Positions 11,218 to 14,530 of a DNA stretch of 64,000 nt are shown here, piece by piece (the stretch's first letter is position 1; each line of letters opens with the position of its first letter). Origin of the DNA: Bacteroidia bacterium (GTDB taxonomy: Bacteria; Bacteroidota; Bacteroidia; CAILMK01; JBBDIG01); contig JBBDIG010000017.1 of the NCBI GenBank assembly GCA_040880525.1, positions 62,001-126,000 of the forward strand, in the 5' to 3' direction. Made by a program: the position numbers and the translations under genes. The notes beneath the pieces are model-generated. The model was given only the letters and a program-made list of their open reading frames with translations. It did not search any database and was not told the origin of the DNA.

Positions 11218-13431
11218 ATGAAGAAACTACTGATTGTATCGAACAGGTTGCCCATAAAAGTTGGCAGCGATGGAAATAATTATATAATAAATAGAAGTGA
11301 AGGAGGACTTGCCACCGGCCTATCATCTCTTAATAATGAGATGGAGACGGAATGGGTGGGCTGGCCGGGAATTGCCACCACCACCAAAAAAGAGGAACGT
11401 GAGGTATCCGAAAAAATGGGCGATAGCTATCATGCTGTTTTCATGTCCAGGTCAGAAGTAAAGAATTATTACCAGGGGTTTAGCAATGAAACCATCTGGC
11501 CTCTTTTTCACTGCTTTACAGGTTTTGTTGATTATGATAAAGCATATTGGGAATCCTATAAAAAGGTGAACCAGCGGTTCTGCGATAAAGTGGCCGAGGT
11601 AGCCAGCGAAGGAGATATTATCTGGGTGCAGGACTATCACCTGATGTTATTACCGGAAATGCTGCGTCAAAGACTTCCAAATAATCCAATCGGTTTTTTC
11701 CTGCATATACCCTTTCCATCCTACGAGTTGTTCAGGACCCTCCCGTGGCGAAATGAAATTCTGGAAGGTTTGCTAGGCGCTGACCTGGTAGGATTCCATA
11801 CCTATGAATATATGCGCCACTTCGCAAGTGTAGTTTCCCGGATTTTAAGCCATAAATGCAATTTGGGTGAAATAAGAACACGAACGCACTCATGTTTTAT
11901 TGATGCTTTCCCGATGGGGATTAACTACGATAAGTTTCATAATTCTTCTCAGGATCAAGCTGTTAATGGGCAGATACGGGAGTTCAAGGCAAGATTCGGA
12001 GGCTTCAGGCTCATCCTTTCTGTTGACCGGCTGGACTATACAAAAGGCATCCTGGAGCGGCTCCGGGCATTCGGAGCACTGTTCTCAAAATATCCTGAGC
12101 TCAAGGAAAAAGTATCGCTGGTGATGGTAACCGTGCCTTCCCGATACAACGTAGAATCCTACAAAAACCTGAAAGAACAAATAGATGAACAGGTTGGGCA
12201 TATTAACGGGAAGTTCTCCACCCTTTCCTGGACGCCCGTTCATTATTTCTACCGTTCCATTCCTTTTGAGCACCTGACGGCTTTATATAATCTGTCCGAC
12301 ATCGGGCTTGTAACACCTCTGCGAGATGGGATGAACCTTGTGGCGAAGGAATACATTGCCAGCAAGCAAAACCAGCGCGGGGTATTGATATTGAGCGAAT
12401 TGGCAGGATCGGCCAGTGAACTTACCGATGCCATAATGGTGAATCCTAATAACGAAGAGGATATTGTGGCCGCTTTATATGATGCGCTCAATATGCCGGA
12501 AGATGAACAGAAAAGAAGAATTGAAAAAATGCAGGCGCATATCAAAAAGAATTCGGTGGAAAAATGGGCTCAGGATTTTACCGGTAGCCTTTGCGCAATT
12601 GCAGATAAAAGACACCAAAGAGCCAGGAGCATCATAAACGGCCAGGTAACTAAAACCATTGCAGCAGCTTTTACAAGGGCCCGCAAGCCACGGATTATCC
12701 TGGGCTATGACGGAACGCTGGTTCCGTTTGATGAAAACCCGGCAATGGCTGAGCCTACACCTGACATATTGAGAATCATTGAAGAACTTCAGCAAAAATG
12801 TGATCTCATTATAACGAGTGGCCGCGACTTTTCCAGCCTGGAGCAATGGTTTGGCAAAACCGGGGCAGATCTGGTTGCCGAACATGGCATCTGGTTTAAA
12901 ACCAACAATGAATGGTACAAACATGCTGAAATGGATACATCCTGGAAAGATGAAGTAGATTCGCTCCTGCAACAGTTTATATTAAAAACGCCCGGTTCTT
13001 TTATCGAAAATAAAACCTGTTCATTAGCATTTCATTACAGGAAAACAAACCAGTTCCTTGCGGAGATGCATATTCCCTACATTATAAAGGCCCTTTCTGC
13101 AGTCTGCGTGAAACACAGGCTGGAATTATTACAGGGAAATAAGGTGCTGGAAGTACGTATTTCTGGCATCAGCAAAGCCACTACTGTACGCAGCCTGCTG
13201 AATAATGATCAGCATGATTTCCTGATGGCCATTGGAGATGATGATACGGATGAGGACGTTTTCGGGGTATTGCCTTCCCACGCCTATACTATTAAAGTAG
13301 GAGATGATGAAAGCATCGCCCGGTACCGGATAGAAAATGAATTAAAAGTAAAATCGCTTCTCAACGAATTAATAAAGGTTAAAAAACAGCGAAAATCTCC
13401 AGGTCAAAAATCCGGGGTTTTGACCCATTAA
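11218..13431 (+). CDS. otsA-otsB fusion: Fused trehalose-6-phosphate synthase / trehalose-phosphatase; phosphatase nucleophile missing
   Basis: The 737-residue fusion is expected to make trehalose-6-P from UDP-glucose and glucose-6-P, then dephosphorylate it. The GT20 domain (about 1-465) keeps its signatures: SNRLP, SEGGLATGL, WVQDYHLMLLPE, HIPFPSYELFR, SVDRLDYTKGI and TPLRDGMNLVAKEY. The HAD phosphatase domain (about 485-720) keeps IITSGRD, AEHGIW and GDDDTDEDVF. However, motif I, normally DYDGT, reads GYDGT: codon 496 (12703-12705) is GGC, not GAC. That residue is the phosphorylated nucleophile, so the phosphatase half should be inactive. An mscS gene follows 7 bp after the stop, suggesting an osmotic-stress operon. 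Bifunctional fusions are usual in Bacteroidota; the lost Asp is the odd point. Confidence 0.93.
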   Translation: MKKLLIVSNRLPIKVGSDGNNYIINRSEGGLATGLSSLNNEMETEWVGWPGIATTTKKEEREVSEKMGDSYHAVFMSRSEVKNYYQGFSNETIWPLFHCFTGFVDYDKAYWESYKKVNQRFCDKVAEVASEGDIIWVQDYHLMLLPEMLRQRLPNNPIGFFLHIPFPSYELFRTLPWRNEILEGLLGADLVGFHTYEYMRHFASVVSRILSHKCNLGEIRTRTHSCFIDAFPMGINYDKFHNSSQDQAVNGQIREFKARFGGFRLILSVDRLDYTKGILERLRAFGALFSKYPELKEKVSLVMVTVPSRYNVESYKNLKEQIDEQVGHINGKFSTLSWTPVHYFYRSIPFEHLTALYNLSDIGLVTPLRDGMNLVAKEYIASKQNQRGVLILSELAGSASELTDAIMVNPNNEEDIVAALYDALNMPEDEQKRRIEKMQAHIKKNSVEKWAQDFTGSLCAIADKRHQRARSIINGQVTKTIAAAFTRARKPRIILGYDGTLVPFDENPAMAEPTPDILRIIEELQQKCDLIITSGRDFSSLEQWFGKTGADLVAEHGIWFKTNNEWYKHAEMDTSWKDEVDSLLQQFILKTPGSFIENKTCSLAFHYRKTNQFLAEMHIPYIIKALSAVCVKHRLELLQGNKVLEVRISGISKATTVRSLLNNDQHDFLMAIGDDDTDEDVFGVLPSHAYTIKVGDDESIARYRIENELKVKSLLNELIKVKKQRKSPGQKSGVLTH

Positions 13432-13438
13432 TATAAGC

Positions 13439-14530
13439 ATGCGAATGGTCGGAGAAGTTTGGGTAAATATTGCTATAGTAGCAGGGGCCATTATTGTCGC
13501 TCTCCTCCTTCATTATGTGCTGTTTCGTTTTCTGCAAAAAAGCCGAATTTTCCATGAGCGGGAAAAAGTCCTCATGTTTTGGCAGCAGCTATACAGCCCG
13601 GCCAGGGTGCTCATGGTGCTGCTATCAATCTTTATTGTTTACAGAACTGTAGATGCTTTTACCCTTCCTGTTTCCTCCACGATTCGTCATCTGCTATCCA
13701 TCGTATTTATTCTTGTCGTTGCCTGGCTTACTATTAAATTAATTCGAGCCGGACGAATCATATTGATGCGGCAGTATGACCTGCAGTCCGCAGATAATCT
13801 GGCGGCCAGAAAAGCCTATACCCAGATTTACATGATCGAGAATATCCTCCATTTCCTGGTAGGTGTTTTAACGATCGGTATTATTCTGATGACATTTCCG
13901 CAGGTGAGGGAGGTGGGCGTGAGCCTTCTTACCTCGGCAGGGATTGCCGGCATTATCCTGGGTTTTGCCGCGCAAAAACTTATTGCCACCATCCTGGCGG
14001 GAATCCAGATCGCCCTTACACAGCCATTCAGAATTGATGACGTGGTGATTGTAGAAAGGGAATGGGGCCGGATAGAGGAGATCAACCTTACTTATGTGGT
14101 CGTCAAAATATGGGATGAACGAAGGCTCGTAGTTCCTACCATATACTTTATTGAAAACCCCTTTCAGAACTGGACGCGTACCAGCGCGGAAATTTTGGGA
14201 ACTGTCTATATCCTTACCGATTATCGTTTCCCGGTAAGTGCGCTACGGCAGGAACAAACTCGGCTCCTCCAGACTACAGATCTCTGGGATAAACGCGTGA
14301 ACGTGTTGCAAGTAACGGATGCAAAGGAAAAAACAATGGAACTCAGGGTATTGGTGAGCGCCAGCGATGCTTCTTCGGCCTGGGATCTTAGAGTATTCCT
14401 CAGAGAAAAGCTTATTGAATTTATTCAGAAAAATTACCCGGAAAGCCTGCCGCTAACAAGGGTTGAAATGAATGACCCTTCCGGCAAAAAAGAGGATAAA
14501 GCAAAAAAACCAGGCCCCGTGAACTTTTAA
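13439..14530 (+). CDS. MscS-family mechanosensitive channel
   Basis: The 363-residue inner-membrane channel should release solutes on hypo-osmotic shock. Hydrophobic segments occur near residues 7-30, 55-70, 80-100 and 130-150. They are followed by a glycine/alanine-rich pore helix (GIAGIILGFAAQKLIATIL) and the conserved cytoplasmic beta domain beginning PFRIDDVV. The C-terminal alpha/beta domain ends in a Lys-rich tail. The start lies 7 bp after the trehalose synthase gene, so both are probably on one transcript, coupling compatible-solute synthesis to emergency release. Which MscS subfamily it belongs to is uncertain. Confidence 0.92.
   Translation: MRMVGEVWVNIAIVAGAIIVALLLHYVLFRFLQKSRIFHEREKVLMFWQQLYSPARVLMVLLSIFIVYRTVDAFTLPVSSTIRHLLSIVFILVVAWLTIKLIRAGRIILMRQYDLQSADNLAARKAYTQIYMIENILHFLVGVLTIGIILMTFPQVREVGVSLLTSAGIAGIILGFAAQKLIATILAGIQIALTQPFRIDDVVIVEREWGRIEEINLTYVVVKIWDERRLVVPTIYFIENPFQNWTRTSAEILGTVYILTDYRFPVSALRQEQTRLLQTTDLWDKRVNVLQVTDAKEKTMELRVLVSASDASSAWDLRVFLREKLIEFIQKNYPESLPLTRVEMNDPSGKKEDKAKKPGPVNF

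Follow-up and report, generated by a model that had tools for sequence, protein, structure and literature searches.

Can a trehalose-6-phosphate (T6P) synthase fused to a trehalose-phosphate phosphatase (TPP) domain still act as a trehalose maker when the phosphatase half lacks its nucleophile? Bacterial fusions of a T6P synthase (TPS) with a TPP are commonly interpreted as bifunctional enzymes of trehalose synthesis. The window (the whole stretch of 64,000 nucleotides analysed here) encodes such a fusion, in which Gly takes the place of the nucleophilic Asp of HAD motif I. The fusion gene, its domains and motif residues, and the gene that follows it are:

11218..13431, + strand: TPS-TPP fusion gene (OtsA-OtsB type), 737 aa, with GT20 then Trehalose_PPase in the same ORF
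11224..12591, + strand: GT20 trehalose-6-phosphate synthase domain, residues 3-458 (PF00982, E 1.3e-162, 542 bits)
12700..13290, + strand: trehalose-phosphatase (HAD) domain, residues 495-691 (PF02358, E 2.2e-41, 142 bits)
12703..12705, + strand: codon 496, GGC; Gly replaces the motif I nucleophile Asp (translation and alignment)
12709..12711, + strand: Asp498 (GAC), motif I general acid/base, kept (alignment)
12817..12819, + strand: Ser534 (SGRD), motif II, kept (alignment)
13174..13179, + strand: Lys653 (motif III), kept; the adjacent conserved Gly654 is Ala (alignment)
13237..13251, + strand: motif IV Asp674...Asp678 (GDDDTDED), kept (alignment)
13439..14530, + strand: MscS-type mechanosensitive channel gene, starting 7 bases downstream of the fusion gene

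The GT20 half keeps all columns that are invariant in 25 fused proteins, including R10, G29, G30, Y85, H163, R271, K276, D370 and E378. This bears out an earlier reading of the locus, made without database searches (the sequence-only reading), which had described the GT20 motifs as intact. In a structure comparison, the GT20 fold was matched by Candida Tps1 (5hut) with a TM(target) of 0.94.

Motif I of the phosphatase half reads ILGYDGTLV, with GYDGT instead of DYDGT. Translation and alignment confirmed the exchange of Asp for Gly at codon 496 (GGC) that the sequence-only reading had reported. Its companion claim, that the other HAD motifs are intact, also held: T500 is kept along with D498, S534, K653, D674 and D678, and residue 496 is the only HAD motif residue altered. 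In the TPP of Brugia malayi, Asp213 is the nucleophile and the D213A variant has no detectable activity (PMC4081830). Because Asp496 is replaced by Gly, loss of TPP activity is expected, and by analogy with D213A the phosphatase half of the window fusion should be dead. The earlier claim that the fusion does not dephosphorylate T6P is, to this extent, well supported by homology. The domain is predicted to be folded even without its nucleophile, with AF2 block-mean pLDDT values of ~79-93 across residues 495-691, a prediction that has no bearing on its activity.

To place the substitution among related proteins, 103 fused TPS-TPP relatives were gathered from public genomes and a class-level sample. 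Asp occupies alignment column 496 in 101 of these proteins; the other two are the window protein (Gly) and L087 of genome G041 (Asn). When three TPPs from the PDB were aligned to the domain, two had the Asp of FDYDGT at this position and one, 5dx9, had Asn (LFNYDGT), apparently a crystallised mutant. Seeming nucleophile losses in the Phycisphaerae TPPs L068 and L078 and in L076 were rejected as BLAST gap artefacts, the translations reading VATDFDGT, VASDFDGT and LGLDVDGT, respectively. The sequence-only reading was right about codon 496 but missed two further departures in the window TPP, W605F and G654A, the latter beside the motif III Lys. Both fall at columns with a conservation of 94% or more, and the median number of such departures among the relatives is zero. 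No close relative was found with which to confirm the base: the window genome is the sole member of its taxonomic family, the other 11 genomes sampled from the order lack the window protein, and even the most similar fusions share just 46-48% identity with it.

A genome-wide search of the window genome (G000; 60 contigs, 98.4% complete) found one GT20 domain, that of the fusion protein, and two TPP domains only. The second TPP domain lies on contig 57 (G000:C57), separate from the fusion, in a protein of 505 aa with an N-terminal HAD domain of the beta-PGM type (PF00702) followed by a TPP domain (PF02358). In this HAD-TPP protein every TPP motif is intact (LDYDGT, SGRD, GDDVTDED), and a GH65 gene directly follows its gene. 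The search for a separate otsB, which the sequence-only reading had proposed as a check, thus turned up a second motif-complete TPP.

The best solved relatives of the HAD-TPP protein are a trehalose-phosphate phosphatase, 5gvx, for the TPP part (E 4.5e-54) and a beta-phosphoglucomutase, 8h5s, for the HAD part. The 5gvx structure, which we take to be M. tuberculosis OtsB2, matches the TPP domain and part of the HAD domain. For the GH65 protein, the best solved match was an entry named trehalose-6-phosphate hydrolase, followed by kojibiose phosphorylase. In many other genomes, a HAD-TPP protein is the sole detected TPP. The same HAD-TPP-GH65 layout occurs in M. tuberculosis OtsB1 (Rv2006), whereas in the window genome the GH65 enzyme has a gene of its own. 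OtsB1, a much larger OtsB homologue of 1327 aa, shows no TPP activity (PMC11046441), and complete motifs are therefore no proof that the HAD-TPP protein is active.

We propose that the window fusion is a T6P synthase with a pseudophosphatase TPP domain and that the HAD-TPP protein dephosphorylates T6P in trans, a reading to which we assign a probability of roughly two in three. The GT20 half would make T6P. The TPP half would be folded but, because Asp496 is Gly, would form no phospho-aspartate intermediate. The separate 505-aa protein would then remove the phosphate from T6P, and the GH65 enzyme and the HAD domain would probably recycle the trehalose unit to glucose-6-phosphate. The second phosphatase would have come first, leaving the fused domain free to lose catalysis, and the dead domain may still serve the synthase in a structural or regulatory capacity. 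Of this account, the substitution, the intact second TPP, the gene neighbourhoods and the recurrence described below were observed directly; the lost activity, the complementation in trans, the sequence of events, any scaffold function and the substrate of GH65 are inferred.

The association recurs in other genomes. A comparable HAD-TPP pair occurs in only three of the 395 genomes from the same class (G000, G041 and G311), each of which carries a fused TPS-TPP with an altered motif I. The clearest case is the G041 fusion (L087), with NHDNS as motif I, SNM in motif II and GND in motif IV (D496N, T500S, G535N, R536M, D674N and others); the HAD-TPP and GH65 genes of this genome adjoin each other, away from the fusion. 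G311 has two fusions, one normal and a second copy with T500A and D675N. Two further cases came from the public set: L050 of G731 (D678N, R536C, H556D, H606C, R608G), in a genome with a TPP/GH65 module, and L047 of G733 (S534A, E645T), where the module lies beside the fusion and is truncated at the end of the contig. G1033 (L272/L273), which came from a sample centred on G731, is a counterexample to a strict one-phosphatase rule: both its fusion and its HAD-TPP/GH65 pair are intact.

Forty-four further genomes whose fusions are intact lack HAD-TPP; one of them encodes an additional TPP, in a frame as long as a fusion. In the sample centred on G731, 42 fusions occurred in genomes without HAD-TPP, 40 of them intact (one with Thr for Ser534, an accepted motif II residue) and two damaged (G1046 and G1174). 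Overall, the fused TPP is damaged at core motif residues in 5/6 genomes with HAD-TPP/GH65 and in 2/~128 without (Fisher p 3.7e-7, uncorrected), in a test that ignores phylogeny and shared ancestry, on samples that may overlap, and with core residues that are a textbook set but were drawn up once the first deviants were known. With the count limited to the six residues described as catalytic in B. malayi TPP, the result was 4/6 against 2/128 (p 1.7e-5), and counting nucleophile loss alone gave a weak association (2/6 against 1/128, p 0.005). Some of the changes, such as T500A and D678N, may leave activity.

The two damaged fusions in genomes without HAD-TPP differ in kind. In G1046 (L311, C28:6300-9000), the general acid is replaced (D498V, DYVGT) and there is no second PF02358 match; either a base error or a further loss may explain this. 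In G1174 (L312, C1:1-5500), the TPS carries a degenerate TPP with LEAEG as motif I and motif IV lost. The fusion lies on a 4.39 Mb contig, and the ~4.4 Mb genome has no other PF02358 match and no obvious replacement TPP.

In a tree of the TPS domains, the window protein, the G041 protein and the deviant G311 copy fall apart, separated by well-supported branches that require two origins or more. A single shared origin for the three was rejected on these branches, although G000 and G041, which lie near each other, may share one loss. The G731 and G733 proteins are placed elsewhere again. A broader generalisation, which we hold tentatively and at somewhat less than even odds, is that in several bacterial lineages the presence of the HAD-TPP/GH65 module was repeatedly followed by loss of catalysis in the fused TPP, which would have been retained to scaffold or regulate the synthase, in parallel with the eukaryotic combination of TPS-pseudoTPP and separate TPP.

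This recurrence also bears on whether the substitution is real. A sequencing or assembly error would need only a single A>G base to hide a true Asp codon in an ordinary bifunctional TPS-TPP; every other motif residue is intact, and the window TPP is otherwise near normal, unlike that of G041. However, G000 belongs to the small set of genomes with HAD-TPP/GH65, where fused TPPs are usually damaged, and W605F and G654A are two more departures at conserved TPP columns. We consider an error unlikely.

The sequence-only reading had suggested that T6P might build up and be regulatory, unless another OtsB exists, and that reservation turns out to apply. The build-up idea is weakened, since a second motif-complete TPP is encoded in G000 and build-up is for that reason not the default expectation. 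The dead half could still let T6P accumulate as a signal, with HAD-TPP/GH65 as a separate disposal route used under other conditions: the fusion and HAD-TPP genes lie on different contigs and are probably controlled separately, the adjoining GH65 gene gives HAD-TPP a degradative-looking context, and in G1174 the fused TPP is dead although PF02358 is matched nowhere else. Besides the intact TPP in G000, we count against this that we know of no T6P sensor in the window's organism. T6P accumulation is also toxic in M. tuberculosis (PMC5148154), and a signalling role of this kind seems quite improbable to us.

Plain decay, in which a redundant TPP domain drifts with no scaffold or regulatory role, would agree with the presence of a second TPP in G000 and with the branch lengths. 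The end branch of the window TPP is somewhat longer than that of the TPS domain, with a ratio of 1.70 where the median is 1.19 (rank 17 of 92), a slight sign of relaxed constraint. Yet of 34 highly conserved TPP columns, the window protein retains 31 and the G041 protein still 20, both proteins being full-length and in frame. We see little chance that drift alone accounts for this pattern, although decay may be recent. That the Gly496 protein retains phosphatase activity, with water or another residue serving as nucleophile, or has changed specificity, is hardly to be expected: its general acid and its Mg- and phosphate-binding residues are all kept, but motif I offers no visible alternative carboxylate and B. 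malayi D213A is inactive as far as detectable (PMC4081830).

For our preferred reading, a synthase with a pseudophosphatase half complemented in trans, the analogy with inactive plant TPP domains drawn by the sequence-only reading is apt. It extends to yeast and is strengthened by the recurrent association across genomes. What is said here of plant class I TPS is partly general background. In plants and yeast, a dead TPP half is kept on the synthase alongside a separate TPP, and the window fusion resembles plant class I TPS and yeast Tps3/Tsl1 in joining TPS to a TPP with an incomplete catalytic set and, on our reading, in leaving the dephosphorylation of T6P to a separate TPP (PMC3634074, PMC1769515). 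In contrast to these, the window case is bacterial, the losses are probably independent, and the partner phosphatase is of the HAD-TPP type, its gene lying next to one for GH65. We found no report of this bacterial pattern, a dead fused TPP with HAD-TPP/GH65, in the literature searched, which was covered in part.

Among bacterial proteins, the closest in form is the TPS-TPP fusion of the Cytophaga hutchinsonii type (cited in PMC3634074), with the same domain order, length, GT20 motifs and most TPP motifs; the window protein differs in the Gly at the motif I nucleophile, and its genome in having a separate TPP. If phosphatase-half loss is indeed recurrent and tied to a second phosphatase gene, domain-based annotation would misassign activity to such fusions. 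They would also form a small natural bacterial set for studying why a T6P synthase keeps a dead TPP half, a question shared with the plant and yeast fusions.

The MscS gene at 13439-14530 is a probable operon partner of the fusion gene. The same arrangement is found in G041, where an MscS gene (L087 3734-4813) right after the fusion encodes a protein 54% identical to that of the window. A TPS-TPP fusion also occurs with a mechanosensitive channel in the msc-gt-tpsp operon of Thermoproteus tenax, where the TPP is active (PMC3634074). In contrast to that operon, the window has no GT4 partner gene, its MscS gene is downstream and its protein is longer.

The HAD-TPP module itself varies in form. 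In G311 (L198 9361-10890), its HAD and TPP parts are encoded by adjacent separate genes instead of a single protein.
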